In this document: piece after piece, positions 5,355 to 49,075 of the stretch
Position numbering within the stretch: the first letter of the stretch is position 1
Layout of the letters: each line of letters starts with the position of its first letter
Origin: Gammaproteobacteria bacterium
GTDB taxonomy: Bacteria > Pseudomonadota > Gammaproteobacteria > SpSt-1174
DNA length: 64,000 nucleotides
Direction: 5' to 3'
Assembly: GCA_037388465.1 (NCBI GenBank)
Contig: JARRKE010000019.1
Coordinates: 1 to 64,000, forward strand
Notes under the pieces: model-generated
Databases searched by the model: none
What the model was told of the DNA's origin: nothing
What the model saw: only the letters and a program-made list of their open reading frames with translations
Program-made: the position numbers and the translations under genes

Positions 5355-6482
5355 ATGCCTGAAGCCCAACGATCCCCCCATGCGGTCTTGGACGACCCTC
5401 AATCCACGGCACAGACCGCCCCCCTGTCCCACGGGGTAAGCCTGGAAGTGCAGCAAGTTACCAAGCATTACGATGAACATCTGGCACTGGACGGCGTAAG
5501 CCTGAAGGTGGAACCCGGCGAATTCTTTACCCTCCTCGGACCGTCGGGTTGCGGCAAGACCACGCTGTTGCGATGCATCGCCGGACTCGAACGACCCGAT
5601 TCCGGCGAGATAGTCATCAACAACAAGCAGGTTACCGCCGAGTCCGCCCACGTCCGCAAAGTCAACACCGTCTTCCAGTCCTACGCCCTGTTTCCCCACC
5701 TGAACGTCACCGACAACATCGCCTTCGGACTTCGCATGCGCGGCATCTCCAAGGCCGAGCGCCACGCGAAGGTGGCGAAGATCCTCGAATTCATGCACCT
5801 GGAGCCGCTGGCCTCGCGCCGGCCGGACCAGCTTTCCGGCGGCCAGCAGCAGCGCGTCGCGCTGTCGCGGGCCCTGGTCAACGAACCGCAGATCCTGCTG
5901 CTCGACGAACCGCTTTCCGCGCTCGACGCCAAACTGCGCACCGAGCTGCAACTGGAGCTCAAGCGCACCCAGCAGCGCCTGGGCATGACCTTCGTCCTGG
6001 TCACGCACGACCAGGCCGAAGCGCTGACCCTATCGGACCGCATCGCGGTCATGCGCAACGGCCGCGTCGAGCAGGTCGGTGGCGTGACCGAACTGTATGA
6101 GCGTCCCCGCACGGCCTACGTCGCCGAGTTCCTCGGCCTGGCCAACTGCCTGCCGGTGAACCGCGTGGATGGCAATGCGCTCGACACACCGATCGGACGC
6201 CTGATGATCGAACCCGCGGCAACCAACGTATCCAAGGTGATGATCCGCCCCGAGCGACTGCGTATCGGCTGCGAATCACTGCCCGGCTACAACAGCTTCC
6301 AGACCGTGGTGCGTGAACGCATCTATCTCGGCGCCAGCAGTCGCTACAGCCTGGAAATCGGCGATTACTGCCTGACGGCGGTGGTCGCCCACCAGGGCCA
6401 CGGCTGCGATCTGCCGGAGATGGGTGAGACGATCACCGTGCAGGCGCATCCCCAGGACGTCATCCCGCTCGCGGATGACTGA
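5355..6482 (+). CDS. potA: Spermidine/putrescine ABC transporter ATP-binding protein
   Basis: 375-residue cytoplasmic ATPase that powers polyamine import. Walker A GPSGCGKTT lies at about residues 62-70, with the Q-loop in VFQSYALFPH, signature LSGGQQQRVALSRAL, Walker B ILLLDEP and the switch histidine in LVTHDQAEA. A C-terminal TOBE-type regulatory domain covers roughly residues 280-370. First gene of a four-gene operon potA-potB-potC-potD. The polyamine assignment rests on PotD and on the polyamine-degrading genes that follow. Two PuuR-like boxes upstream suggest induction by putrescine. Confidence 0.93.
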   Translation: MPEAQRSPHAVLDDPQSTAQTAPLSHGVSLEVQQVTKHYDEHLALDGVSLKVEPGEFFTLLGPSGCGKTTLLRCIAGLERPDSGEIVINNKQVTAESAHVRKVNTVFQSYALFPHLNVTDNIAFGLRMRGISKAERHAKVAKILEFMHLEPLASRRPDQLSGGQQQRVALSRALVNEPQILLLDEPLSALDAKLRTELQLELKRTQQRLGMTFVLVTHDQAEALTLSDRIAVMRNGRVEQVGGVTELYERPRTAYVAEFLGLANCLPVNRVDGNALDTPIGRLMIEPAATNVSKVMIRPERLRIGCESLPGYNSFQTVVRERIYLGASSRYSLEIGDYCLTAVVAHQGHGCDLPEMGETITVQAHPQDVIPLADD

Positions 6483-6511
6483 CCGATCCATCAAGTAACG
6501 GAGATGCGCAC

Positions 6512-7414
6512 ATGATCCGCTTGAATGGGTCCTCATACACACAGGCTTTACGGCTCACCGCCACCATCGGTCCCGGGGTGGCGTGGATTACCGTCTTTTT
6601 GTTCCTGCCCAGCGTGCTGATGGGCCTGTTGGCCTTCCTGACCAACGGCGCCTACGGCCAGCCCGTCATGCCGCTGACCACGGATGCCTTCAAACAGGTC
6701 GCGGGTTTCAACTTTCTGGGGTGGAGTCCTGGCAATCTGCAGGTCATCGGCCGCTCGCTGCTGCAGGCGGGCTATACGACCATCGCGACCATCCTGCTCG
6801 CCTATCCGGTGGCATTCTTCATCGCCGGCGTGCGCGAGCGCTATCGCGCCTTCCTGCTGCTGTTGGTCATCATCCCCTCCTGGACCAACCAGGTGGTACG
6901 CACCTATGCCTGGATGCAGCTGCTCGCGCCCGACACGCCGCTGTCCGATCTGGCCGTGCACCTGGGCCTGATCCCGCAGCATCTCGGCCTGTATCCCAGC
7001 AATTACGCCGTATCGATGGGCCTGATCTACAACTACCTGCCCTACATGGTGTTGCCGATCTATGCCTCGGTCGAAAAGCTCGACTGGCGCCTGGTCGACG
7101 CCACGCGCGATCTGTACGCCAACAGCTGGCGGGTGTTCTGGCACGGCGTGTTCCCGCAGACCATCCCGGGCCTGCTGGCCGGCATCATCCTGGTGGCCAT
7201 CCCGGCATTCGGCGCCTACATCGTTCCCCAGCTGCTGGGCGGTGACAAAGCCATGATGCTCGGCAACCTGATCGCCTCGCAGTTCAGCTCGCTGCCCAAC
7301 TGGCCGTTCGGTGCCGCCCTCACGCTGGTCATGCTGGCCTTCACTTTCATCGGATTGGCGGTATTCAGGCGCCTCTCCCGAAAACTGAACGCCGGGGAGG
7401 CGAACCTGCTATGA
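6512..7414 (+). CDS. potB: Spermidine/putrescine ABC transporter permease PotB
   Basis: 300-residue inner-membrane permease with about six hydrophobic segments, beginning with GVAWITVFLFLPSVLMGLLAF. The conserved EAA-type loop is DATRDLYANSWRVFWHGVFPQTIPG, the contact site for PotA. It forms the channel with PotC. The stop codon overlaps the ATG of potC (ATGA), so translation is coupled. Confidence 0.93.
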   Translation: MIRLNGSSYTQALRLTATIGPGVAWITVFLFLPSVLMGLLAFLTNGAYGQPVMPLTTDAFKQVAGFNFLGWSPGNLQVIGRSLLQAGYTTIATILLAYPVAFFIAGVRERYRAFLLLLVIIPSWTNQVVRTYAWMQLLAPDTPLSDLAVHLGLIPQHLGLYPSNYAVSMGLIYNYLPYMVLPIYASVEKLDWRLVDATRDLYANSWRVFWHGVFPQTIPGLLAGIILVAIPAFGAYIVPQLLGGDKAMMLGNLIASQFSSLPNWPFGAALTLVMLAFTFIGLAVFRRLSRKLNAGEANLL

Positions 7415-8232
7415 GATCCGGTATCGCCAAGAAGATTTCGAACGCCGTCGCGCTCGCCACGCTGGGCTTTTTGTGGATGCCGCTGGTCGTGGTGGTGGCC
7501 TTTTCGTTCGAACCCGAAATGGCCGCGGTGCACCTGACCGGCTTTACGCTCGACTGGTACGGCAAGGTGCTGGAAGGCGGCGGCATGCTCAACGCCCTGT
7601 TCAAGTCGCTGGAACTGGGCCTGACATCCGCCCTCATCGGCACCCTGTTCGGTGCCTTCCTGGCCGTCGGGCTGCACAAGTATCGCGGCAGGGGATTCGC
7701 CGTTCTGGCCCTGATCGTCTACCTGCCGATCGTGATGCCCGACGTCATCTACGGCATCTCGCAGATGGTGTTCTTCAACTACCTCAAGCAGTTCATCGGC
7801 TGGCCGAACGCGGGTCTGCTGACCATGGGCATCGCCCACATCAGCTTCCAGATTCCCTATGTCGCACTGATCGTCTATGCGCGCCTGGTGGGCCTGGACC
7901 GGGATCTCGTCAACGCGGCGGCCGATCTTTACGCCTCACCGCTGAAGAGCATCTACGCCTTCTGGATCCCCGTGCTGCGCCCGGCCCTGATCGCCTCGTT
8001 TCTGCTGGCGTTCACGCTGTCGCTGGATGACTTCGTCATCAGCTTTTTCACCAGTGGCCCGGGCAGCGTGACCCTGCCGATCTACATCTGGGGCAGCATC
8101 GCCAAGCACGGCGTCACACCGGAAACCAACGCCATCGCGAGCCTGCTGATCGGTGCCGTGCTGCTGGTCGCGTTGATCCAAACCTATTTAAGCGCCCGTC
8201 GTGTTGGGCATCTTGCACCAACGAGTAATTAA
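7411..8232 (+). CDS. potC: Spermidine/putrescine ABC transporter permease PotC
   Basis: 273-residue permease with six predicted membrane helices, starting with an N-terminal helix LATLGFLWMPLVVVVAFSF. The EAA loop reads NAAADLYASPLKSIYAFWIPVLRP and is followed by SLDDFVISFFTSGPGSVTLP, typical of PotC-type permeases. It pairs with PotB in the membrane. It starts within the potB stop codon and ends 31 bp before the potD ATG. Confidence 0.93.
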   Translation: MRSGIAKKISNAVALATLGFLWMPLVVVVAFSFEPEMAAVHLTGFTLDWYGKVLEGGGMLNALFKSLELGLTSALIGTLFGAFLAVGLHKYRGRGFAVLALIVYLPIVMPDVIYGISQMVFFNYLKQFIGWPNAGLLTMGIAHISFQIPYVALIVYARLVGLDRDLVNAAADLYASPLKSIYAFWIPVLRPALIASFLLAFTLSLDDFVISFFTSGPGSVTLPIYIWGSIAKHGVTPETNAIASLLIGAVLLVALIQTYLSARRVGHLAPTSN

Positions 8233-8263
8233 CCATCAGCCAGATATAAATGGAGAGCAACAC

Positions 8264-9325
8264 ATGTCCCTGTTCAAACGACTGTTAATGACACTGGTGC
8301 TGGCGTCCCTGCCGGCATGGGCCTTCGCCCAGCAGACGCTTTATCTGTTCAACTGGACCGAGTACATGGATCCGGACATCATCAAGGCGTTCGAGAAAAA
8401 GTACGATGTAAAAGTTGTCGAGACCTACTATTCTTCCAACGCCGAACTGCAGGCCAAGCTGATGGCCGGCGGCACCTCCCAGTACGACGTGGTCGTCCCC
8501 TCGAACTACATGATCCAGCGCATGGCCAAGGCCGGCCTGCTTATGAAGCTGGATCACAAACAGATTCCCAACCTCAAGAATCTGATGCCGCAGTTCAACA
8601 ACCCGGCCTACGATCCCAACCTGCAGTATTCGATTCCCTACCAGTGGGGTACCACGCTGCTCGCCTACGATGACCGCAAGATCAAGAACCCACCCAAGAG
8701 CTGGTCGCTGATCTTCGACCCGAAGGTCAACGCCTCTTATCCCTTCGCCGTCATGGGCAGCACCGGTGCGGACACCATGGGCGCCGCCTGCGCCTATCTC
8801 GGCCTCGGCTTCGACTGCACCGGCGTGGACGCATGGAAAAAGGCCGCCAAAGCGGTGGTCGCCGTGCAGAAACGACCCAATTTCACCGGCTTCGTCGACG
8901 GTACGCCGGCCCTGCATCAGCTAGAGAAAGGCATCATCTCCGTCGGCATGATCTTCAACGGCGACCTCGCTTCCGAGATCGAGGGCAGCCCCAAGGCCAC
9001 CAAGCATGTGAAGTGGTTCATCCCGAAGGAAGGCTCGGAGGTCTGGGTGGACAACATGGCCATTCCCGCCCATGCCCCGCATCCGGCGCTGGCCTACAAG
9101 TTCATCAACTACATCCTGGATGCCAAGGTCGGCGCGCAGCTGTCGAACTATAACGTCTACGCCAGTCCGAACGCCGCCGCCAAACCCTACCTGGATCCGG
9201 TGCTGAAGACCCCGCTGGTCACCCCGACCGCCGAGGAGTGGAAGCGACTGAGCTATGTGCCTGCCTTGGAAGGTGAGGCGTTGAAGCAGTACTCAGCGAT
9301 CTGGCGCGCCGCGCGCGAGCACTGA
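8264..9325 (+). CDS. potD: Periplasmic polyamine-binding protein PotD/PotF
   Basis: 353-residue substrate-binding protein that captures putrescine or spermidine for PotABC. A Sec signal peptide (MSLFKRLLMTLVLASLPAWAFA) precedes QQTLYLFNWTEYMDPDII, the usual start of the mature family fold. The segment YDVVVPSNYMIQRMAKAGLL is also characteristic. The ATG at 8264 was chosen because GGAGAG precedes it and it gives a clean signal peptide. Putrescine-preferring and spermidine-preferring members cannot be separated by eye. The operon ends at the terminator at 9339. Confidence 0.93.
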   Translation: MSLFKRLLMTLVLASLPAWAFAQQTLYLFNWTEYMDPDIIKAFEKKYDVKVVETYYSSNAELQAKLMAGGTSQYDVVVPSNYMIQRMAKAGLLMKLDHKQIPNLKNLMPQFNNPAYDPNLQYSIPYQWGTTLLAYDDRKIKNPPKSWSLIFDPKVNASYPFAVMGSTGADTMGAACAYLGLGFDCTGVDAWKKAAKAVVAVQKRPNFTGFVDGTPALHQLEKGIISVGMIFNGDLASEIEGSPKATKHVKWFIPKEGSEVWVDNMAIPAHAPHPALAYKFINYILDAKVGAQLSNYNVYASPNAAAKPYLDPVLKTPLVTPTAEEWKRLSYVPALEGEALKQYSAIWRAAREH

Positions 9326-13905: not shown

Positions 13906-14454
13906 ATGAGCATAGATGTCGGTGCACGACTGCGCGCATTACGTGAGATGTACGGTCTCTCGCAGCGCGAACTCGCCAAGCGGGCGGGAGTGACAAACGG
14001 GATGATTTCGCAGATCGAGCAGGACCGGGTCAGCCCGTCCATCGGCTCGCTGAAGAAGATCCTGGACGGCCTTTCGCTGTCCATGGCGGATTTCTTCACC
14101 CAGGATTTCGGCGCGGCGGAACAGGTGTTCTTTTCCAAGGACGACCTGCCGGATCTGGGCAGCGGACCGATCGCCTTCTTCCTGGTCGCAGCCAACCGCA
14201 AGGAACGCGCCATGTCGATGATGCATGAGGTCTACGCGCCCGGTGCCGATACCGGCGAGGAGATGCTGCAGCACAACGGCGAGGAAGCCGGCGTGGTGGT
14301 GCGCGGGGAAATCGAAGTGACGGTCGGCGGAGAATCGCGCGTGCTGGGGCCCGGCGACTCCTATTACTTCGAGAGCCGGATTCCGCACCGCTTCCGCAAC
14401 CCGGGTGATGTCGAGGCGGAGATCATCAGCGCCAACACACCGCCCAGTTTCTGA
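13906..14454 (+). CDS. puuR: PuuR-like XRE/cupin transcriptional regulator
   Basis: 182 residues, with an N-terminal XRE helix-turn-helix (about 6-60: RLRALREMYGLSQRELAKRAGVT, then GMISQIEQDRVSPSIGSLKKIL) and a C-terminal cupin (EAGVVVRGEIEVTV, VLGPGDSYYFESRIPHRFRN). This is the architecture and length of E. coli PuuR, which represses putrescine catabolism and is released by putrescine. It sits in the middle of the polyamine island, and boxes of one motif lie beside its own gene and beside the pot, puuA, puuD and aminotransferase operons. The first gene downstream, 64 bp on, is the puuC-type dehydrogenase. The ligand is inferred. Confidence 0.87.
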   Translation: MSIDVGARLRALREMYGLSQRELAKRAGVTNGMISQIEQDRVSPSIGSLKKILDGLSLSMADFFTQDFGAAEQVFFSKDDLPDLGSGPIAFFLVAANRKERAMSMMHEVYAPGADTGEEMLQHNGEEAGVVVRGEIEVTVGGESRVLGPGDSYYFESRIPHRFRNPGDVEAEIISANTPPSF

Positions 14455-14518
14455 TCCCGGACGTCAGGCGACAGGTCGGACGCCCGGTGATGATCAACCA
14501 ACACCTTTTGGAGTTCTC

Positions 14519-16021
14519 ATGACCAGTAACCTGACGCTCTCTGACTGGCAGGCCAAAGCCACGACCCTGAACATCCGCGGCCAGGCCTTCATCGGCGGGC
14601 GGTATGTAGACTCGCTGTCGAACAAGACCTTCGACTGCATCAATCCCGCCAACGGCCAGACCCTGGCCAGGATCGCGGAATGCGATGCGGCGGATGCCGA
14701 TGCCGCCGTAGCCGCCGCCCGCAAGGCCTTCGAGTCCGGCTCCTGGTCACGCATGGCGCCGCACGATCGCAAGCAGGTGATGATCCGTTTCGGCCAGCTC
14801 ATGGACGAACACCTGGAGGAGCTCGCGCTGCTCGAAACCCTGGACATGGGCAAGCCGATCGGGGACAGCACCACCATCGACATCCCCGGTGCGGCCCGCT
14901 GCATCCGCCACTACGGCGAAGCTGTCGACAAGCTGTACGACGAGGTGGCACCAACTCCCGACGCGGCCCTGGGGCTGATCACCCGCGAACCCATCGGCGT
15001 GGTCGCGGCCATCGTCCCCTGGAATTTCCCCATCCTGATGGCGGCCTGGAAGATCGGCCCGGCCCTGGCCGCCGGGAACTCGGTCATTCTCAAGCCCTCG
15101 GAAAAATCGCCCCTGACCGCCATCCGCGTGGCCGAACTGGCGATGGAGGCCGGCATGCCGGAGGGCGTGTTCAATGTCCTGCCCGGTTTCGGCCACACCG
15201 TCGGCAAGGCCCTCGCCCTGCACATGGACGTGGATTGCATCGCCTTCACCGGCTCCACCTGGGTCGGCAAACAGATCATGCAGTATGCCGGCCAGTCCAA
15301 CCTGAAACGGACCTGGCTGGAGTGTGGCGGCAAGACGCCGAATATCGTGTTCGCCGACACCCCCGACCTGGATGCCGCGGCCGAGGCCTCCGCCTTCGCC
15401 ATCTTCTACAACCAGGGCGAGATGTGCACCGCCGGTTCGCGTCTGCTGGTGGAGGAATCGATCAAGGAGGCATTCATCGAAAAGGTCATCGCCTCCGGCC
15501 AGCGCATGGCGCCCGGCGATCCGCTCGACCCGCAGACCCGCATGGGCGCCATCGTCGACGACATCCAGCTCGACCGGGTGATGGGCTACATCGAGGACGG
15601 CAGAAAGGCCGGTGCGCGCATTCGCCTGGGTGGCGAGCGTGCCCTGCAGGAAACCGGCGGCTATTATCTGCAGCCGACCATCTTCGACAATGTGACCAAC
15701 GACATGAAGATCGCCCAGGAGGAGATCTTCGGCCCGGTGCTCTCCACCATCAGCTTCACGGATGAGGAAGAGGCCGTACGCATCGCCAACGACACGGACT
15801 ATGGCCTGGCCGCGGCGGTCTGGACCAGCAACATGAGCAAGGGGCACCGCATGGCCAAGCGCCTGCGCGCCGGCACCCTGTGGGTCAACTGCTTCGATGA
15901 AGGCGACCTGACCGTGCCGTTCGGCGGTTTCAAGCAATCCGGCAACGGCCGCGACAAGTCGCTGCACGCCTTCGACAAGTACGTCGAGCTCAAAACCACC
16001 TGGATCGATCTGAGTCGCTGA
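14519..16021 (+). CDS. puuC: Gamma-glutamyl-gamma-aminobutyraldehyde dehydrogenase
   Basis: 500-residue NAD(P)-dependent aldehyde dehydrogenase of the PuuC type, oxidising gamma-glutamyl-gamma-aminobutyraldehyde to the acid. Features: VVAAIVPWNFPILMAAWKIGPALA, catalytic glutamate in LECGGKTPN, catalytic cysteine in NQGEMCTAGSR, and the C-terminal TVPFGGFKQSGNGRDKS. The ATG at 14519 follows TTTTGGAG. Placed directly behind the PuuR-like gene and followed closely by a GNAT and an SDR gene. PuuC-type enzymes are broad, so other amine-derived aldehydes are possible substrates. Confidence 0.9.
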   Translation: MTSNLTLSDWQAKATTLNIRGQAFIGGRYVDSLSNKTFDCINPANGQTLARIAECDAADADAAVAAARKAFESGSWSRMAPHDRKQVMIRFGQLMDEHLEELALLETLDMGKPIGDSTTIDIPGAARCIRHYGEAVDKLYDEVAPTPDAALGLITREPIGVVAAIVPWNFPILMAAWKIGPALAAGNSVILKPSEKSPLTAIRVAELAMEAGMPEGVFNVLPGFGHTVGKALALHMDVDCIAFTGSTWVGKQIMQYAGQSNLKRTWLECGGKTPNIVFADTPDLDAAAEASAFAIFYNQGEMCTAGSRLLVEESIKEAFIEKVIASGQRMAPGDPLDPQTRMGAIVDDIQLDRVMGYIEDGRKAGARIRLGGERALQETGGYYLQPTIFDNVTNDMKIAQEEIFGPVLSTISFTDEEEAVRIANDTDYGLAAAVWTSNMSKGHRMAKRLRAGTLWVNCFDEGDLTVPFGGFKQSGNGRDKSLHAFDKYVELKTTWIDLSR

Positions 16022-36949: not shown

Positions 36950-38203
36950 ATGACACTCAACGCCCAGGCACGCATCACGCGTGAGCGACTCGCTTTCCTC
37001 AATCGCGACGGCCTGCAACTGGCCGGCCTGCTGGAACGGCCGACCGGCCAGCCCCGCGCCTATGCCCTGTTCGCCCATTGCTTCACCTGTTCCAAGGATA
37101 TCGGCGCCGCCACCCGCATCGCGCGCGCCCTGGCCGAACAGGGATTCGCCGTGTTGCGCTTCGACTTCACCGGCCTAGGCAACAGCGAGGGCGATTTCGC
37201 CAATACCAACTTCAGTTCCAATATCGACGATCTGGTCAGCGCCGCGGAGCATCTGGCCGAAACCGGCTGCGCGCCCGACCTGCTGATCGGACACAGTCTG
37301 GGCGGGGCGGCCGTGCTGGCCGCGGCGCATCGCATCCCCTCGGCCAAGGCCGTGGTCACCATCGCCGCGCCCAGCGACCCGGCCCACGTCGCGAATCTGT
37401 TCGAAAACAGCCGCGAGGAGATCAAGGAGGCCGGTTACGCGCAGGTCAATCTGGTCGGACGGCACTTCACCATCAAAAGGCAGTTCCTCGAGGACATCGA
37501 ATCCCATTCCCTGCATGAACAGATCGCGCACCTGAACCGCGCCCTGCTGATCCTGCATTCACCGACCGACGAGGTAGTGGGCGTGGAACATGCCCGGCAC
37601 ATCTACGAGGCCGCCAAGCATCCCAAGAGTTTCATCTCGCTGGACCGGGCCGATCACCTGATCACCCGCCAGGAGGATGCGAGCTACGTCGCCGACACCA
37701 TCGCCATCTGGGCCAGCCGCTACCTTGCCCGCTGCGCGGAGGACGGCGGCCGCATGGAATCGCCCGCGCTGCAAACGGGCGAGGTCCTGGTGCGCGATAC
37801 CTACGGGCATCTCACCCACGAGGTCTTCACCGAGTCGCACCGCCTGCTGGCCGACGAACCGATCCACGAAGGTGGCGACGCGATGGGACCGTCGCCGTAC
37901 GAATACCTGCTCGCGGCCCTGGGTTCCTGCACCGCGATGACCCTGCGGCTTTATGCCGAGCACAAACAGCTCCCGCTGCGACACGTCAGCGTGCGCCTCA
38001 CCCATGCCAAGGTGCACGCGCAGGACAGTGAGCACTGCGCGGAAAATCATCCCGAGAAACTGAGTCTGATCACGCGCGAGATCACGCTCGTCGGCGATCT
38101 CACCGAGGCGCAGCGCCAGCGCATGCTGCAGATCGCCGATCGCTGCCCGGTGCACCGCACCCTGACCGGCAAGATCTGCATCGAATCGCGCCTGGCGACC
38201 TGA
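36950..38203 (+). CDS. Alpha/beta hydrolase-OsmC fusion protein
   Basis: 417-residue fusion. Residues about 1-260 are an alpha/beta hydrolase with [23 protein letters not shown], the nucleophile elbow [16 protein letters not shown] and the acid/histidine region LDRADHLIT. Residues about 270-417 are an OsmC/Ohr domain with cysteines in [15 protein letters not shown] and DRCPVHRTL, the pair used for peroxide reduction. This fusion is known across proteobacteria; the substrate is unclear. Confidence 0.92.
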
Positions 38204-38283: not shown

Positions 38284-38862
38284 ATGGCACGTACTCCCTC
38301 GACCATGCTCGACCTGGGCACGTCTGCACCCGATTTCTCCCTGCAGGATGCCGTGAGCGGCAACACCGTTTCGCTGTCCGATTACGCCGGCAAACCCCTG
38401 CTGGTGGCCTTCATCTGCAACCATTGCCCGTTCGTGCAGCTGATCCGCCACGAGTTCGCCCGCTATGCGCGCGAATACGAGCAAAAAGGGCTTGCGGTGG
38501 TGGCGATTCAATCCAACGACGTGGAAAGCCACCCGGACGACAGCCCGGAAAAGATGCAGGACGAGGCACGGCGTTTCGGCTACACCTTCCCCTATCTCAG
38601 CGACCCGACGCAGGAAGTGGCCAAGGCCTATCGCGCCGCCTGCACACCGGACTTCTTCCTGTTCGATGCCGACCACAGGCTGGTCTATCGCGGCCAGTTC
38701 GACGCCGCCCGCCCGGGCAGCGATGTTCCCGTCACCGGCGAGGACCTGCGCGTGGCATCCGAGGCGCTGCTGTCCGGCACGCCGGTTCCTCAGGACCAGA
38801 AACCCAGCCTGGGCTGCAATATCAAATGGAAGCCCGGCAACGAGCCGGATTACTACGGCTGA
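38284..38862 (+). CDS. Thioredoxin-like AhpC/TSA-family protein
   Basis: 192-residue cytoplasmic protein with the thioredoxin fold: DLGTSAPDFSLQDAVSGNTVSLSDYAGKP, then FICNHCPFVQLIRHEF holding the CxxC motif (CNHC), IQSNDVESHPDDSPEKM, and ACTPDFFLFDAD with the cis-proline. It has no signal peptide. Homologues are peroxiredoxin- or ResA-like oxidoreductases of unknown partner. The position behind an OsmC-domain gene suggests a shared role in peroxide defence. Confidence 0.88.
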   Translation: MARTPSTMLDLGTSAPDFSLQDAVSGNTVSLSDYAGKPLLVAFICNHCPFVQLIRHEFARYAREYEQKGLAVVAIQSNDVESHPDDSPEKMQDEARRFGYTFPYLSDPTQEVAKAYRAACTPDFFLFDADHRLVYRGQFDAARPGSDVPVTGEDLRVASEALLSGTPVPQDQKPSLGCNIKWKPGNEPDYYG

Positions 38863-38874
38863 GCCGTCGCCCGT

Positions 38875-39795
38875 CTAATCGAGCAGCGCATTGAGGTGGG
38901 CGGCCACGCTGCGCCCCAGCGCGGACAAGGCGTAACCGCCCTCCAGGACCGAGACGATGCGGCCGTGCGCACAGCGCGCGGCCATCTCCACCAGCATCTG
39001 CGTAACCCGCTGGTAATCGCCCTCCACCAGGCGCAGGGCGGACATATCGTCTTCCACATGGGCGTCGAAGCCGGCCGAAATCAGGATCAACTCGGGCCCG
39101 AAATCCTCCAGCGCCGGCACCCAGTGCCGCTCGACCGCCTCGCGGAACACCACGCCGTTGCTGCCCGCCGGCAGGGGGACATTGATGATGTGTTCGTTGC
39201 CGCTGTCCGCGCCCTGGTAGGGGTAAAACGGATGCTGAAAGGTGGAGCAGTACAGCACGCGCGGATCGTCGCGGAAAATATCCTCCGTCCCGTTGCCGTG
39301 ATGCACGTCGAAATCGACGATCGCGACCCGCTGCAACCCGTACACCGCCAAGGCATGCGCGGCACCCACCGCCACGTTGTTGAAGATGCAGAACCCCATC
39401 GAGCTGTCCCGCGTGGCATGGTGACCGGGCGGACGCACCATGCAGAAGGCATGGCGGACGTCGCCGCGCATGACCAGATCGACCCCGTATACCACAGCGC
39501 CCGCAGCGTGCAGCGCGGCATCCAACGACTCGGGGCTCATCCGGGTATCGGGATCCAGCCATGCGCGGCCTTCCAGGGGCGAGGCCTCGAAAATGGACTG
39601 CACGTACGCCGGAGTATGCACCCGCTCGAGCTGCTCGCGGGTAGCCGCCGGCGCGGTTTCGTGGCGCAACAGCATGTCCAGACCCGAGGCGATGAGCTGG
39701 TCGTTGATGGCGTCCAGCCGCGCGGGTTGCTCGGGATGATCGATCCCCATATCGTGAAGCCGGCAGGCTGGGTGGGTAATAAGTGCGAGCGTCAT
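38875..39795 (-). CDS. Histone-deacetylase-family (AcuC/acetylpolyamine amidohydrolase-like) enzyme
   Basis: 306-residue Zn-dependent deacetylase with HPEQPARLDAI, the active-site pair RPPGHHAT, MGFCIFNNVAVGA, metal ligands in VDFDVHHGNGTEDIF, ILISAGFDAH and SVLEGGY. Bacterial members deacetylate proteins (AcuC on acetyl-CoA synthetase) or acetylpolyamines. Both fit here: a Pat-type acetyltransferase gene lies divergently 131 bp away, and a polyamine island is in the same window. The ATG at 39795 starts at the conserved MTLALITHPACRLHDMG. Confidence 0.9.
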   Translation of the reverse strand: MTLALITHPACRLHDMGIDHPEQPARLDAINDQLIASGLDMLLRHETAPAATREQLERVHTPAYVQSIFEASPLEGRAWLDPDTRMSPESLDAALHAAGAVVYGVDLVMRGDVRHAFCMVRPPGHHATRDSSMGFCIFNNVAVGAAHALAVYGLQRVAIVDFDVHHGNGTEDIFRDDPRVLYCSTFQHPFYPYQGADSGNEHIINVPLPAGSNGVVFREAVERHWVPALEDFGPELILISAGFDAHVEDDMSALRLVEGDYQRVTQMLVEMAARCAHGRIVSVLEGGYALSALGRSVAAHLNALLD

Positions 39796-39926
39796 GTCGG
39801 GAACATCCACATGGCTTAAGCTTCCAATGGCCGATGGAGTCAATTCATGGAACGGACCGCTTCATTCTCGCCCGCGCAATGTAACAATGCCAGCATGCCA
39901 CCGCCGACCGAGCTGAGGGAATCCTG

Positions 39927-42605
39927 ATGGGACCGCATTACCTGAGCAGACTGTTTTCGCCCGAATCCATCGCCGTCATCGGCGCCAGCGAACGCCCGGA
40001 CTCGGTGGGCATGCGCGTACTGGTCAACCTCAGGGAAGCCGAGTATCAAGGCGCGGTCTACCCGGTGAACCCCAAGCACAAACGCGTGCTGGAGCAACGC
40101 TGCTATCCCGACGTAGCGTCGATCAACAAACCGGTCGACCTGGCGGTCATCGCCACACCGGCACCCACCGTGCCGAAGATCATTCACCAGTGCGGCGAGG
40201 CGGGGGTGCGCGCCGTGGTCGTCATTTCCGCAGGCTTCGGCGAAGTCGGCGAACAGGGCCACCAGCTTCAGGAGGCGCTGATCGAGGGCGCGCGCCGATA
40301 CGGCATGCGCGTCCTGGGCCCCAACTGCCTGGGCATCATGCGCCCGGAAATCGGCCTCAACGCCACCTTCAGCAAAAACCGCGCACACCCCGGGCATCTC
40401 GCACTGGTCTCGCAATCCGGCGCCCTGTGTACCGCCGTCCTGGACTGGGCGGAACAGAACGATATCGGTTTTTCCGCCATCGTCTCCCTGGGCGACGCGG
40501 CCGACCTCGATTTCGGCGACGTACTGGATTATCTGGCGCTCGATCCCGACACGCGCAGCATCCTGCTCTACATCGAAGGCGTGCTGGATGCGCGCGGCTT
40601 CATCAGCGGCCTGCGCGCCGCCGCCCGCCTCAAACCGGTCATCGTCATCAAGGCAGGACGCCATGCCGCGGGGACGCGCGCCGCCGTGTCGCACACAGGC
40701 GCCCTGATCGGCGCGGACGACGTCTTCGATGCGGCACTGGAACGCACCGGTGCCGTGCGGGCAGCCAGCGTCGCCCAGCTCTTTGCCGCGGCGGAGATCC
40801 TTACCGTCAACAAGCCGGTGCGTCACAACCGGCTTGCCATCGTCACCAACGGCGGCGGACCGGGCGTCATGGCCAGCGACCGTGCGTCGGAAATGGGCGT
40901 CGCACTGCCCGATCCATCGAAAAACAGCATTGAGGCCCTCAACGCCCTGCTTCCCAAACACTGGTCGCACGGCAACCCCATCGACATCCTCGGGGATGCG
41001 CCGCCCGATCGCTATGGCCGTGCGGTAAAGGCCTGCCTGGACGATCCGGCCTACGACGGGGTCGTGGCCATGCTCAGCCCCCAGGCCATGACGGAACCCA
41101 CCGAGGCCGCCCAAGCGGTCGTCGATGCCGCCAAGGACCACCGCAAACCGGTGCTCGCCTGCTGGCTGGGCGAAGCGCAGGTAGCCGACGCGCGCGCGCT
41201 GTTCGCCGAACACCATATCCCTTCGTTCAGTACCCCCGAGGACTCCATCGAGGCCTTTTCGTTTCTGAGCAACTATCACCACAACCAGGCCCTGTTGCGC
41301 CAGGTTCCACCGCCGCTGCACGGCCATGCCGCACCCGACATCGAAGGCGCTCGGCTGATCATCGAAAGCGCACTCAGTGAGAGCCGCAGCCTGCTCAGCA
41401 CCACCGAGACACGCGCCATCCTGAGCGCCTTCCATATCCCGATTCTGCCGGCCATCCAGGCCAAGGACGCCAACGACGCCCTGATCGCCGCCGAGGCACT
41501 GGGCTTCCCGGTCGCGCTCAAGATCGACTCCCCCGATCTCACCCACAAATCCGATGTCGGCGGCGTGCGGCTCAACATCGGCAATGCACCGGCCGTCCGC
41601 GGCGCCTATCAGGCGCTGATGGAAAACGTACAACGCCGCGCCCCCGATGCCCGGGTGCACGGCGTGACCGTGGAACACATGTACGAAAGCGCACAGGCCC
41701 GCGAGCTGTTCATCGGGGTGATGCGCGATCCGGTATTCGGCCCCACCATCAGTTTCGGCCTGGGCGGCACTGCGATCGAGGTGCACCGCGACCGCGCCGT
41801 CGCACTGCCGCCGCTCAACACCTTCATCATCCGCAGCATGATCGGCCGTACCCGCGTCGCGCGCATGCTGGGCGAATTCCGCCAACTGCCCGCGATCAAC
41901 ATGGGTGCCCTGGAAAGCGTCCTGGAGCGCATCTCTGAGATGGTCTGCGAGCTGCCGCACATCAAGGAACTGGACATCAATCCGCTGATGGCCGACGACC
42001 AGGGCGTAATGGCGGTGGATGCGCGCATCGTGGTCGAGCTGCCGGCCCGGCATCACGACCGTTACGACCATATCGCCATCCACCCCTATCCCAGCCACCT
42101 GGTCAGCCGGTGGCAGCTGCCGGACGGCACCGAGATCGTATTGCGCCCCATCCGCCCCGAAGACGCAGGCATCGAACAAACCTTCGTCAAGGAACTGTCG
42201 GACGAGTCGCGCTACTTCCGGTTCATGCAGGCCCTGCACGAACTGACGCCCGAAATGCTGGTGCGTTTCACGCAGATCGATTACTCGCGCGAAATGGCCT
42301 TCATCGCCGTCACCGAAATCGACGGCCGCGAGGTCGAGCTGGGCGTGGCCCGCTACACCATCAACCCCGACCGGGCGAGTTGCGAATTCGCCCTGGTCGT
42401 CCTCGACTCGTGGCACCATCGCGGCATCGGCACTCACCTGATGGAAAAACTCATGCAGGTCGCCCGCGCCCGCAGTCTTCAGACCATGGAGGGCGAGGTA
42501 TTGAGCAACAATCGCAACATGCTGGAACTCGTTCATTCCCTCGGCTTCACCAGCCGCCCCAGCCCGGATGATCCGCAGATTCAGATTGTGTCTGCCAGGT
42601 TGTAG
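39927..42605 (+). CDS. Pat-type acyl-CoA synthetase (NDP-forming)/GNAT acetyltransferase
   Basis: 892-residue protein with the domain order of protein lysine acetyltransferase Pat/PatZ. CoA-binding Rossmann domain at the N-terminus (SPESIAVIGASERPDSVGMRVLVNL), succinyl-CoA-ligase-like domains (LGPNCLGIMRP, VSQSGALCTAVLDWAE, SHTGALIGADDVF), an ATP-grasp region (ALKIDSPDLTHKSDVGGVRL, KELDINPLMAD), and a GNAT domain from about residue 735 (IVLRPIRPEDAGIEQTF, WHHRGIGTHLMEKLM). Pat acetylates and inactivates acetyl-CoA synthetase in enterobacteria. The neighbouring deacetylase-like gene makes the same role likely here. Confidence 0.92.
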   Translation: MGPHYLSRLFSPESIAVIGASERPDSVGMRVLVNLREAEYQGAVYPVNPKHKRVLEQRCYPDVASINKPVDLAVIATPAPTVPKIIHQCGEAGVRAVVVISAGFGEVGEQGHQLQEALIEGARRYGMRVLGPNCLGIMRPEIGLNATFSKNRAHPGHLALVSQSGALCTAVLDWAEQNDIGFSAIVSLGDAADLDFGDVLDYLALDPDTRSILLYIEGVLDARGFISGLRAAARLKPVIVIKAGRHAAGTRAAVSHTGALIGADDVFDAALERTGAVRAASVAQLFAAAEILTVNKPVRHNRLAIVTNGGGPGVMASDRASEMGVALPDPSKNSIEALNALLPKHWSHGNPIDILGDAPPDRYGRAVKACLDDPAYDGVVAMLSPQAMTEPTEAAQAVVDAAKDHRKPVLACWLGEAQVADARALFAEHHIPSFSTPEDSIEAFSFLSNYHHNQALLRQVPPPLHGHAAPDIEGARLIIESALSESRSLLSTTETRAILSAFHIPILPAIQAKDANDALIAAEALGFPVALKIDSPDLTHKSDVGGVRLNIGNAPAVRGAYQALMENVQRRAPDARVHGVTVEHMYESAQARELFIGVMRDPVFGPTISFGLGGTAIEVHRDRAVALPPLNTFIIRSMIGRTRVARMLGEFRQLPAINMGALESVLERISEMVCELPHIKELDINPLMADDQGVMAVDARIVVELPARHHDRYDHIAIHPYPSHLVSRWQLPDGTEIVLRPIRPEDAGIEQTFVKELSDESRYFRFMQALHELTPEMLVRFTQIDYSREMAFIAVTEIDGREVELGVARYTINPDRASCEFALVVLDSWHHRGIGTHLMEKLMQVARARSLQTMEGEVLSNNRNMLELVHSLGFTSRPSPDDPQIQIVSARL

Positions 42606-42681
42606 TGGGTGAGGTGTGGGTTGTGTTGTATTCGACAGGTGTGCAGCCCTGTACCGTTTGTTTTGAATGCAGTTAGATAGG

Positions 42682-42998
42682 CATGTGGAATGGTTTCGCG
42701 CATTCATGGATGCGTGTTTCTAATTAGCTCTTGTAGTAATGCGCGAGCCGGGTTCTTTGCTCGCCCAAAGAACCCGGCGGAAGAAAGGGCGCCCCACGGC
42801 CACGCTATGCCGACACACTGCCTTCCTGGCGCGTCGGCATTCGTGCGCCCCTGCACATCACCTTCACACCCCGCGGTCTGACCCGAGGTCTTTCGACAGG
42901 CCGTCCCTGGCCTGCGAAAGACGCGCGTGATCCTTCACGCGCCCTGACGGCTCCTGGTCAGTCCAATGCGGGGCGTTCCGGGCGTGGCCGACGGGGAT
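42682..42998 (+). repeat. Dispersed intergenic repeat, copy 1
   Basis: Begins GTTTCGCGCATT and TTTCTAA, followed by an AATGCGCGAG box and a hairpin GGGTTCTTTG-CTCGCC-CAAAGAACCC (42750-42775). It then has GCCCCACGGCC and a conserved downstream part with CACCCCGCGGTCTGACC, CGCGTGATCC, CACGCGCCCTGACGGCTCCT and GCGGGGCGTTCCGGGCG. A second copy in the same order lies at 55308-55575. Confidence 0.85.
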
Positions 42999-42999
42999 T

Positions 43000-43240
43000 A
43001 AAGACAGGTGCCGAGCCCTGAGTGCGAAGTGCTGAGTAAAAAACCGCTCTAGACGCTCACTCAGTCCTCAGTACTCTGCACGCAGCACTGTTTTTTCCTT
43101 CCCCCGTCCCACCTTGCCGAGCGACCGATGGCTTGCAGGGTCAGTCCGGCAGGGACGCCGGGCTGAGGTTCATCGCACCAGGGAAGGTGCGTTGAACCGT
43201 GCCCGTCGCAAGCCGGCGGTTGTGAGGGTAGCCCGCAGGG
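43000..43240. other. Spacer between inverted repeat copies
   Basis: No gene supported. It has an imperfect inverted repeat made of GAGTGCGAAGTGCTGAGT and its counterpart around CTCAGTACTCTGCACGCAGCACTG (43013-43090), followed by a T run. It resembles a terminator-like or selfish repeat element. Confidence 0.4.
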
Positions 43241-46850: not shown

Positions 46851-47264
46851 CTACCCTGCCGGGTGTAATCTCTCGGGCACAGGGCGTGGTTTGCCGTCGG
46901 CATCCACGGCCACATAGGTCAAACCCGCATCGGCCACAGCCACCGTCTCAATCTCGCCGTCGCGATGGCGCTGCGCAATCACCTCGACATTGATGCCAAT
47001 CGAGGTGTGTCCCACACGGCTTACCTCGGCATAGAGATTCACCATGTCGCCGATGTACAGCGGCTTGCGAAAGTTGATGTAGTTCACGGCCGCCGTCACC
47101 ACGCGCCCCTTGGCAAGCAGGACCGCCGGGATGCTGCCGGCGATGTCGATCTGCCCCATCAGCCAGCCACCGAAAATATCGCCGCCGGCGTTGGCGGCCT
47201 GCGGCGTCGCCGGCACGCGCATCACCGGGGCGCGCCCGTCCACGACGCCGTTCTCAGGATTCAT
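46851..47264 (-). CDS. Acyl-CoA thioesterase (YciA type)
   Basis: 137-residue hotdog-fold thioesterase: MRVPATPQAANAGGDIFGGWLMGQIDIAG contains the catalytic region (N-x-x-G-D-I-F-G-G-W), followed by RVVTAAVNYINFRKPLYIGDMV. It hydrolyses acyl-CoA to free acid and CoA. The start overlaps the stop of the acyl-CoA ligase gene (ATGA), so ligase and thioesterase are co-translated. Confidence 0.92.
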   Translation of the reverse strand: MNPENGVVDGRAPVMRVPATPQAANAGGDIFGGWLMGQIDIAGSIPAVLLAKGRVVTAAVNYINFRKPLYIGDMVNLYAEVSRVGHTSIGINVEVIAQRHRDGEIETVAVADAGLTYVAVDADGKPRPVPERLHPAG

Positions 47265-49075
47265 GCACAATGCCCTTCATACATGCACTCTATGGCTTCG
47301 TGATATTTGTTTTCGATACGCGCCCGCTTCATTTTCATGGTCGGTGTCAGCAGGCCGTCCTCGATGCTCCAGGGCGTGAGTGAAAGCGTCACGCGACGGA
47401 CCTGAGCGTAGCCGGGAAAATCATCTATCGCCTGAGCGATGCGATGCAGAACGGCCTTTTCAACATATTTGTCGCTCAAGCTGGCCGCCCCGTGCGAATC
47501 CACATCCAGCCCGGCTGCGAATTCCTTCCAGTGATCTTCGTCAAGCACGACAAGAGCGCTGAGATACGGCTTCCCCTCACCGATAATCATGACCTGCTCG
47601 AACAACGGATCCATGGTGATGGCCATTTCCATGTCTGCCGGCGGCACCTTCTCACCGTTGGCCAGCACGATGATCTCCTTCAATCGGCCGATGATGTAGA
47701 TATGCCCGCCCTCATCGATGCGCGCCTGATCGCCGGTATGCAGCCAGCCGTCCGCATCGACGGCTTCCTTGGTTGCCTGCTCGTTGTTCCAGTAACCGAG
47801 CATGACATTGGGCCCGCGCACCAGAAGTTCGTCACGCTCGCCCACCTTGACCTCCACGCCCTCCAGGGCGAGGCCGATACTTTCGGGAATATTGTCATCG
47901 GGGTGATTCACGCTTGCCACCGGACTGCACTCGGTCATGCCGTATCCCTGGAACAGCGGCAGGCCGAGCCCGATAAAGACCTTCGCCACTTCGGGCGGCA
48001 TCGCCGCACCGCCGCAGATGGCGAGCCGCATGCGCCCGCCCAGTCGTGAAAGAATCTTGTGCGCGACCGCTTTTTCCAGCAGCGGCCAGGTCAGAAGCGA
48101 GGGATGCCAGCCGGCGCGCCCCTGGTGATGTTGAAAGCGCCGCCAACCGACCGCTACCGCACGCCTGAACAGGCGTTGCGCCAAGGGGGACTTTTTCTTC
48201 AGACCGTCGAGAATACGTCCGTAAACCCGTTCGTAAATCCGCGGTACCGATACCAGGATGGTGGGACGGATCGCCTGGAGATCCTCACCCAACTGCGGGA
48301 TGGAACGGGCATAAGCCACCTGGATACCGACCATCATCGCCATGTAGTAACCGGCGGTGCGCTCCAGGGTATGCGACAACGGCAGGAAGGAAAGCATCAC
48401 GTCTTCCATCGACATGGGTGCACAGCGGCTGGAGGCATAGGCATTGCTGAGTATGTTGTGGTGACTCAGCATGACCCCCTTGGGTCGGCCGGTGGTCCCG
48501 GAGGTGTAGACGATGGTGGCGAGGTCGTCCGCGTCGCTCTCGCCGGCCTGCAGATCGCCGCGCACACCGAACAGCCATGCGCTCAGCGATTCGAGACGAC
48601 CGTCCGCGGGCCCGTCTTCCTCTTCGATGGTATTGACGCTGATAATGCGTTCAAGACCCTGGATTTCATCCTTTACGGTCTGCAGCTGCTGCCACTGGCG
48701 CTTGCCTTCCACCAGCAGCAGTCGGATATTCGCGTCATTGATGATGTAGGCCGCATTCTCGGGGCGGTCCTCGGTGTACAGGGGTACCGTGACCAATCCC
48801 AGACCCAGCGCGGCCTGATCAAAAGCGATCCATTCACGGGAATTGCGCAACATGATGCCGACGCGATCGCCGGGCTTAAGCCCCTCACGCAACATCGCCG
48901 CCTGCCAGTCACCCACCTCGTTGGCCATTTCGCGCCAGGTGGTTCGCGTCCACTCGCACCGACCGATATCGTACTGCCGATATGCGATCGCATCCGGTGT
49001 CTGATGTACCCGTTCACGAAACAACCCGGCCAGGGTTACCGCCTGCTCCGGCGAGATGGTCGCACCGGTTGTCAT
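47261..49075 (-). CDS. Long-chain acyl-CoA synthetase (AMP-forming)
   Basis: 604-residue ANL-family ligase of the eukaryote-like FAA1 (COG1022) group, activating fatty acids with ATP and CoA. AMP-binding P-loop TIVYTSGTTGRPKGVMLSHHN, LPLSHTLERTAGYYMAM, GYGMTECSPVASVN and WLHTGDQARIDEGGHIYIIGRLKEIIVLANGEKV. Coupled to the thioesterase gene downstream and upstream of fadL. This set would import and activate exogenous fatty acids or remodel membranes. Confidence 0.93.
   Translation of the reverse strand: MTTGATISPEQAVTLAGLFRERVHQTPDAIAYRQYDIGRCEWTRTTWREMANEVGDWQAAMLREGLKPGDRVGIMLRNSREWIAFDQAALGLGLVTVPLYTEDRPENAAYIINDANIRLLLVEGKRQWQQLQTVKDEIQGLERIISVNTIEEEDGPADGRLESLSAWLFGVRGDLQAGESDADDLATIVYTSGTTGRPKGVMLSHHNILSNAYASSRCAPMSMEDVMLSFLPLSHTLERTAGYYMAMMVGIQVAYARSIPQLGEDLQAIRPTILVSVPRIYERVYGRILDGLKKKSPLAQRLFRRAVAVGWRRFQHHQGRAGWHPSLLTWPLLEKAVAHKILSRLGGRMRLAICGGAAMPPEVAKVFIGLGLPLFQGYGMTECSPVASVNHPDDNIPESIGLALEGVEVKVGERDELLVRGPNVMLGYWNNEQATKEAVDADGWLHTGDQARIDEGGHIYIIGRLKEIIVLANGEKVPPADMEMAITMDPLFEQVMIIGEGKPYLSALVVLDEDHWKEFAAGLDVDSHGAASLSDKYVEKAVLHRIAQAIDDFPGYAQVRRVTLSLTPWSIEDGLLTPTMKMKRARIENKYHEAIECMYEGHCA

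Follow-up and report, generated by a model that had tools for sequence, protein, structure and literature searches.

A type I Pat acetyltransferase and a class II zinc-dependent deacetylase encoded by divergent, recurrently adjacent genes: a putative writer–eraser module for reversible protein acetylation in Gammaproteobacteria

The stretch of DNA analysed here, hereafter the window, comprises positions 1 to 64,000 (64,000 nucleotides) of contig JARRKE010000019.1 from the draft genome of a gammaproteobacterium of the SpSt-1174 lineage (GenBank assembly GCA_037388465.1; 2.79 Mb, 98.85% complete). We focus on two divergent genes encoding a Pat-type protein acetyltransferase and a zinc-dependent deacetylase of the histone deacetylase (HDAC) superfamily. 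A first-pass annotation, made from the sequence without database searches, had described a Pat-type enzyme with a nucleoside-diphosphate-forming (NDP-forming) synthetase domain beside a deacetylase, separated by 131 bp, and both the reading frames, which are intact, and their Pfam domains agree with this description:

38875–39795, minus strand: class II (HDAC6-like) zinc-dependent deacetylase, 306 residues from the ATG at 39795, assigned by Pfam and active-site residues.
39796–39926, no strand: divergent intergenic region, 131 bp between the start codons.
39927–42605, plus strand: type I Pat, 892 residues, with an NDP-forming acyl-CoA synthetase part and a C-terminal GNAT domain, assigned by Pfam and alignment.

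The deacetylase frame as such extends over 38875–39843 (minus strand) and is open up to a TTG at 39843, but since the alignments of the best homologues begin at about residue 14–22 of this frame, translation more likely starts from the ATG at 39795, which gives a gap of 131 bp. Upstream of the Pat ATG, GAGGGAAT resembles a Shine-Dalgarno sequence by eye. The gap had been taken for a shared promoter region; its length and the divergent arrangement stand, but a promoter could not be recognised, as no sigma-70-like site was found in 38600–43000 (0, versus 0.7 in shuffled sequences) and the 131 bp contain neither an inverted repeat nor a stable fold, folding less stably than their own shuffles. 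We infer that the two genes may be co-regulated through this gap. Antisense to the Pat gene, a frame of 955 codons is open at 39840–42707 (minus strand); high G+C content is its most likely cause, and it is not counted as a gene.

Along the Pat sequence, Pfam matches follow one another in the order CoA_binding_2, Succ_CoA_lig, Ligase_CoA_2, ATP-grasp_5 and GNAT, with the synthetase part spanning residues ∼12–703 and the GNAT domain residues ∼737–875. This predicted succession of synthetase domains and a C-terminal GNAT domain is that of a type I Pat, and residues 5–875 align with the deposited chain 9it0 (“Protein acetyltransferase”, 597 bits), and likewise with 9isq. The protein is thus probably a lysine acetyltransferase, and it is the one full Pat in the genome, the other match (contig C144, 32% over 212 residues) corresponding to part of the synthetase domain only. 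In a review, the NDP-forming domain of Pat-type enzymes is described as inactive, its catalytic histidine being absent (PMC8556138). The window Pat departs from this in sequence, retaining the histidines of both the alpha part (SHTGA), which is missing from 9it0 and 9isq, and the ATP-grasp part (HKSDV); this concerns the residue only. Loss of the alpha-part histidine is indeed the exception, as it is kept in 82 of 90 Pats in a first alignment and in 85 of 100 in a later one.

The deacetylase is spanned by the Pfam family Hist_deacetyl (305 bits, E = 7e-91). Among solved chains its nearest match is 5ji5 (354 bits), with the two-domain chains of HDAC6 reaching ∼300 bits (∼150 per domain), and no class I chain occurs among the best 60 solved-chain matches. 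Its active site carries the motifs RPPGHH, DFDVHHGNG, GFD and EGGY as well as an apolar gatekeeper (DDMS). Across 150 aligned HDAC relatives, the catalytic histidine pair, the D/H/D zinc ligands and the tyrosine are identical in all, the relay asparagine, also present in the window enzyme, is found in 145, and the gatekeeper position is occupied by methionine, leucine or isoleucine in 149. Judged by these catalytic residues and by its closest similarity, the enzyme belongs to class II, the type of HDAC6 and of bacterial HdaH. For this enzyme as for Pat, the solved relatives leave no doubt about the fold. It shares its catalytic residues, the RPPGHH and EGGY motifs and the relay asparagine with the HDAC6/HdaH enzymes placed in cluster 1 by Graf et al. 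(2024; PMC11532494), who associate RPPGHH and EGGY with robust deacetylation, and whose main text does not name 5ji5, the closest solved relative of the window enzyme.

This assignment differs from that of the first-pass annotation, where the deacetylase had been called AcuC-like. The genome encodes a second zinc-dependent deacetylase, on contig C113, which matches HDLP first (287 bits), followed by RPD3, HDAC1, HDAC2 and HDAC8, and also HDAC6. On similarity, it is this enzyme that the label AcuC (class I, HDLP-like) suits, and not the window deacetylase, whose best matches are 5ji5 and HDAC6. The frame of the C113 enzyme (C113:1–1176) is open at the contig end, and a neighbouring frame resembles ribosomal protein L9 by eye.

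The adjacency of the two genes is far above chance. We sampled 276 gammaproteobacterial genomes, requested at a completeness of at least 90%, in which matches of at least 240 bits were taken as HDAC orthologues, those of at least 480 bits as full Pats, and genes within 500 bp of each other as linked. An HDAC orthologue was found in 69 genomes and a full Pat in 66; 51 genomes hold both, 18 and 15 hold the HDAC or the Pat alone, and 192 hold neither (Fisher p = 9e-27, uncorrected for kinship). Pat and HDAC lie no more than 500 bp apart in at least 29 genomes, in 24 of them divergently, in four co-directionally with Pat first (one pair overlapping by 7 bp) and in one convergently. This count is a lower bound, the weakest HDAC matches having entered only in part, and it includes pairs with an imperfect partner, namely a weak Pat in G044, a cut Pat in G076 and G165, and an HDAC in two pieces in G217. 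The strict set, which demands clear copies of both genes and leaves out G044, G076 and G165, still contains 26 linked genomes out of 51, against ∼0.04 by a crude estimate of chance. As a control, a full Pat and a SIR2-family sirtuin co-occur in 26 of the 276 genomes, and the nearest pair of these on one contig is at least 17 kb apart. G217 also has a second Pat, next to which a further copy of the deacetylase lies split in two (contig C2, ∼3066426–3067110).

The same picture emerges beyond this sample. Of the 80 best named loci retrieved with the deacetylase, 22 have a Pat or a Pat remnant adjoining the HDAC gene. Culturable strains with the divergent pair include Ectothiorhodospira shaposhnikovii DSM 243 and Sedimenticola selenatireducens BK-1. 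Divergent pairs are found, among others, in Gallionella, Sedimenticola, Ectothiorhodospira and Thiobacillus, the Pat-first order in a Gallionella metagenome-assembled genome and in Aliiroseovarius, and the HDAC-then-Pat order in eight loci (Hydrogenophaga, Polaromonas, Azohydromonas and others, with Pats 39–48% identical); over all arrangements, HDAC-linked Pats are 32–66% identical to that of the window. The first-pass annotation had regarded the pair as a local module and had named adjacency in this genome only as one half of what would speak against it; the recurrence in at least 29 of 276 genomes and 22 of these 80 named loci shows that the pair is neither local nor confined to this genome. 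On a tree of 150 HDACs, the linked state requires at least 22 changes over the 143 scorable members, compared to 44–52 when the labels are shuffled (10 of 30 shuffles), and at least 29 when all arrangements are scored; on a tree of 100 Pats, it requires at least 18. The HDAC tree is a quick tree, with support below 80% in 47 of its 147 inner branches, and was built without matches below 230 bits (leaving out G209 and G104); seven of its 150 rows are unscorable at contig ends, and as linked loci were fetched preferentially, fractions taken from trees and clusters are not prevalences.

Pat is not the only GNAT-bearing protein encoded next to this type of deacetylase. At six loci, of which four come from named records and the other two from a draw across the phylum, the deacetylase gene lies directly downstream (at most 4 bases away, or overlapping) of a gene that encodes a fusion of an acetyl-CoA hydrolase/transferase with a GNAT domain in 614–633 residues, the domains being identified by Pfam at four loci and by a GNAT profile and alignment at two. 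These loci (L024, L033, L069, L071, L203 and L204) belong to Glaciecola, Aestuariibacter, Alteromonas and two further genomes. For the fusion of L071, the best NCBIfam model is a butyryl-CoA:acetate CoA-transferase, below its cut-off, and all six fusions keep the glutamate of a GIHSEM-type motif, which we take to be the catalytic residue of the CoA-transferase family. The fusion was not found among the 276 genomes, where CoA-transferase matches (10 of 276 at 1e-60) stop near residue 430, without a GNAT domain, and it is therefore known from the six loci. It may represent a second, non-homologous type of acetyl-CoA-reading protein acetyltransferase, and the exchange of a synthetase domain for a CoA-transferase beside the same deacetylase suggests that the reading of an acetyl-CoA-forming reaction is the conserved design feature. 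In genome G121, a lone Pat-like GNAT of 201 residues is encoded divergently from the deacetylase (L168); at the remaining 77 unlinked HDAC loci, a GNAT profile derived from Pat gave no match in the sequence available up to 4 kb away.

Taken together, these findings favour a module for reversible protein-lysine acetylation with Pat as writer and the HDAC6-like deacetylase as eraser, a reading to which we assign a probability of roughly two thirds. The idea of a writer–eraser module, already put forward in the first-pass annotation, gains from the recurrence of the adjacency in several arrangements. In the mechanism we propose, the synthetase-type domain of Pat would sense acyl-CoA and its GNAT domain would acetylate target lysines, and the neighbouring zinc-dependent deacetylase would remove the acetyl group by hydrolysis, yielding acetate and using no NAD+. 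It would thereby fill, in a genome without a detected sirtuin, the role that CobB plays beside the enteric Pat, and acetyl-CoA synthetase (Acs) would be the best candidate substrate.

Three known systems bear on this proposal. In the acuABC locus of Bacillus, which comprises the GNAT AcuA, the class I deacetylase AcuC and the inhibitor AcuB, a GNAT gene and a zinc-deacetylase gene likewise stand side by side and control protein acetylation, chiefly that of Acs: AcuA and AcuC, encoded in one operon, acetylate and deacetylate AcsA (PMC8556138), and AcuC is likewise treated as a zinc-dependent deacetylase controlling Acs in a further paper (PMC13039410). As there, adjacent genes for a GNAT writer and a zinc-dependent eraser are conserved as a pair here; unlike there, the part of the writer falls to a type I Pat that includes an NDP-forming synthetase domain, the eraser is of the class II, HDAC6-like type and the genes are mostly divergent. 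Since the parts resemble AcuA and AcuC only as members of the GNAT and HDAC superfamilies, the pair may work like acuAC, and we do not class it as a member of that system. The Pat/CobB system of Salmonella and E. coli shares the type I Pat writer, but its eraser is an NAD+-dependent sirtuin, for which this genome has no match. Finally, in Rhodopseudomonas palustris, a GNAT writer is opposed by a zinc-dependent deacetylase on acyl-CoA synthetases: Acs and eight further acyl-CoA synthetases are acetylated by RpPat and deacetylated by LdaA (PMC6640162), with RpPat, according to PMC8556138, being a small type IV GNAT without a synthetase domain, unlike the window Pat.

Several observations weigh against a writer–eraser module, and they concern both the linkage and the substrate. 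Pat and HDAC are not adjacent in 25 of 54 genomes that hold both, and no linked GNAT was found at 77 of the 143 scorable loci of the HDAC tree, a non-random set, so that the enzymes can evidently work apart. In the draw across the phylum, which covers 299 genomes, the genes are linked in 10 of 58 genomes with both, which break down into 9 of 25 in the class of the window genome and 1 of 33 outside it. Moreover, three other genes, among them those for a MoxR-type ATPase and a DUF58 protein, occur near the HDAC gene in 17–18 named loci each, compared to 21 for Pat, and since these frequencies are close to that of Pat, plain inheritance of a neighbourhood can yield such counts in related genomes. 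The adjacency of Pat and HDAC could accordingly be an inherited neighbourhood without joint function, as also suggested by the fact that about half of the genomes with both genes have them unlinked and that the MoxR/DUF58 group is nearly as common (17–18 versus 21 named loci). The members of this group (e.g., at L030 and L042) lie upstream of the deacetylase gene on the opposite strand, the ATPase at 17 loci, the DUF58 protein at 19 and the third gene at 17; 15 of the 17 ATPase loci were scored as lacking a Pat link. Among the loci listed, they hold a single orientation, however, as expected of inherited neighbours, whereas the Pat link takes four forms (divergent, convergent, co-directional with Pat first and co-directional with HDAC first), its Pats being 32–66% identical to that of the window, and a non-homologous GNAT fusion stands beside the same HDAC elsewhere. 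As the linkage persists while orientation and partner subfamily vary, inherited order alone is a poor explanation, and we consider an adjacency devoid of joint function highly improbable.

With respect to the eraser, SIR2 gave no match in this genome, in a search that was positive in 10 of 14 control genomes, and the two zinc-dependent deacetylases are the only erasers found; erasure should thus be hydrolytic. We do not adopt replacement of a sirtuin as a general cause of the link, as 7 of the 29 linked genomes hold SIR2. Genomes lacking SIR2 make up 22 of 29 linked and 11 of 25 unlinked genomes (p = 0.025), a difference that receives no support from seven independent tree pairs, which are too few to decide.

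With respect to the substrate, the genome has an Acs of the AMP-forming type, which scores over the curated cut-off and carries LPKTRSGKIMRR, presumably the classic site of Pat-type control. Acs is no marker of the module, being over the cut-off in 28 of 29 linked and 51 of 60 unlinked genomes, the latter hand-picked from G001–G091, where some unlinked genomes, including the tiniest, were left out. Nor do acyl-CoA synthetase genes stand out as neighbours of linked Pats, as they are found at 6 of 102 Pat loci (two linked, four unlinked) and at 7 of 77 loci with HDAC only. At four loci (L148, L159, L160 and L161), an HDAC-unlinked Pat has an Acs-like acyl-CoA synthetase encoded on the other strand at a distance of 255–440 bp, and three of these four Pats have lost the alpha-part histidine. 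As the presence of Acs does not follow the link, its candidacy derives from the known families, by analogy with which Pat and the deacetylase would act on the same proteins, Acs among them.

The second zinc-dependent deacetylase of the genome could, on the other hand, be the true Acs eraser. The writer–eraser module would then have main targets other than Acs, for instance the fatty-acid acyl-CoA synthetase encoded at 47261–49075, with the class I enzyme of contig C113 serving Acs. The similarity of that enzyme to HDLP and AcuC fits this division of labour, AcuC being the known Acs eraser in Bacillus (PMC8556138), as does the failure of Acs presence to follow the linked state; against it stands that Pat-type enzymes and LdaA are known to act both on Acs and on other acyl-CoA synthetases (PMC6640162). 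We regard a module directed mainly at other targets as a real but rather unlikely alternative to one that includes Acs.

A more far-reaching version of the writer–eraser reading is that of an acetate-recycling switch, in which an enzyme able to form acetyl-CoA from acetate is fused to a GNAT domain and the deacetylase frees acetate, closing a local cycle without NAD+. This we consider doubtful, and equally speculative is the corollary that the sensor domain would be a working enzyme, with acetylation reading the balance of acetate, acetyl-CoA and ATP. The evidence for both consists of intact residues, that is, the histidine in most sampled Pats, as in an ADP-forming synthetase, and the glutamate in the CoA-transferase fusions. 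Loss of the alpha-part histidine shows no association with the HDAC link, having occurred in 10 of the 56 Pats with the link and 5 of the 44 without it, which weakens the case for an acetate cycle.

It had also been suggested that the deacetylase acts on acetylpolyamines, in view of polyamine-type genes in the window. In the part of the window's frames that was scanned, such genes lie 14–34 kb from the deacetylase gene, with those NCBIfam matches that name polyamine functions falling below the curated cut-offs:

5355–9325: potABCD-like transporter set.
14405–16021: aldehyde dehydrogenase nearest to PuuC.
Up to 25296: glutamine-synthetase-like and aldehyde-dehydrogenase genes.

Together, the PotABCD-like, glutamine-synthetase-like and aldehyde-dehydrogenase genes could be served by an acetylpolyamine amidohydrolase whose proximity to Pat is incidental. 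Polyamine transport and the gamma-glutamyl route bypass acetylated polyamines, so that the genes would need no deacetylation if they serve these pathways. According to Graf et al. (2024; PMC11532494), a glutamate gatekeeper is associated with polyamine specificity of the HDAC10 type, and bacterial polyamine deacetylases carry an apolar gatekeeper too (PIS motif). The HDAC10-type glutamate is absent from all 150 aligned HDAC relatives; as bacterial polyamine enzymes are also apolar at this position, the apolar residue alone cannot exclude activity on polyamines. The acetylpolyamine amidohydrolase 3q9b matches the window deacetylase with 104 bits, and only in part (residues 98–317), less than the ∼150 bits per domain of HDAC6, and the recurrent partner of the deacetylase is a GNAT. 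Together with the distance of the polyamine-type genes, this leaves the suggestion without support, and we consider a polyamine deacetylase beside an unrelated Pat very unlikely.

What is already known is that writer and eraser genes can stand side by side, as in acuABC; what differs here is that a class II eraser is paired with a type I Pat, with genes that are divergent in most cases, together with the breadth of this pairing in Gammaproteobacteria and the domain swap of the Alteromonas/Glaciecola type. We found no description of a Pat–HDAC link in the open-access literature as covered by titles and the beginnings of abstracts, with subscription papers largely outside this scope; as evidence of absence this is weak. 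Type I Pats of bacteria are mostly treated as sirtuin partners. Their recurrent link to a class II zinc-dependent deacetylase would supply an eraser to bacteria that lack sirtuins and points to the likely biological partner of an HDAC clade that has been little studied, and it makes the substrates of the linked pair findable through the comparison of two single deletions.

Elsewhere in the window, Pfam identifies a fusion of an alpha/beta hydrolase with an OsmC domain at 36950–38203, and a gene for the large chain of RuBisCO lies at 1422–2834, suggesting that the organism may be an autotroph.

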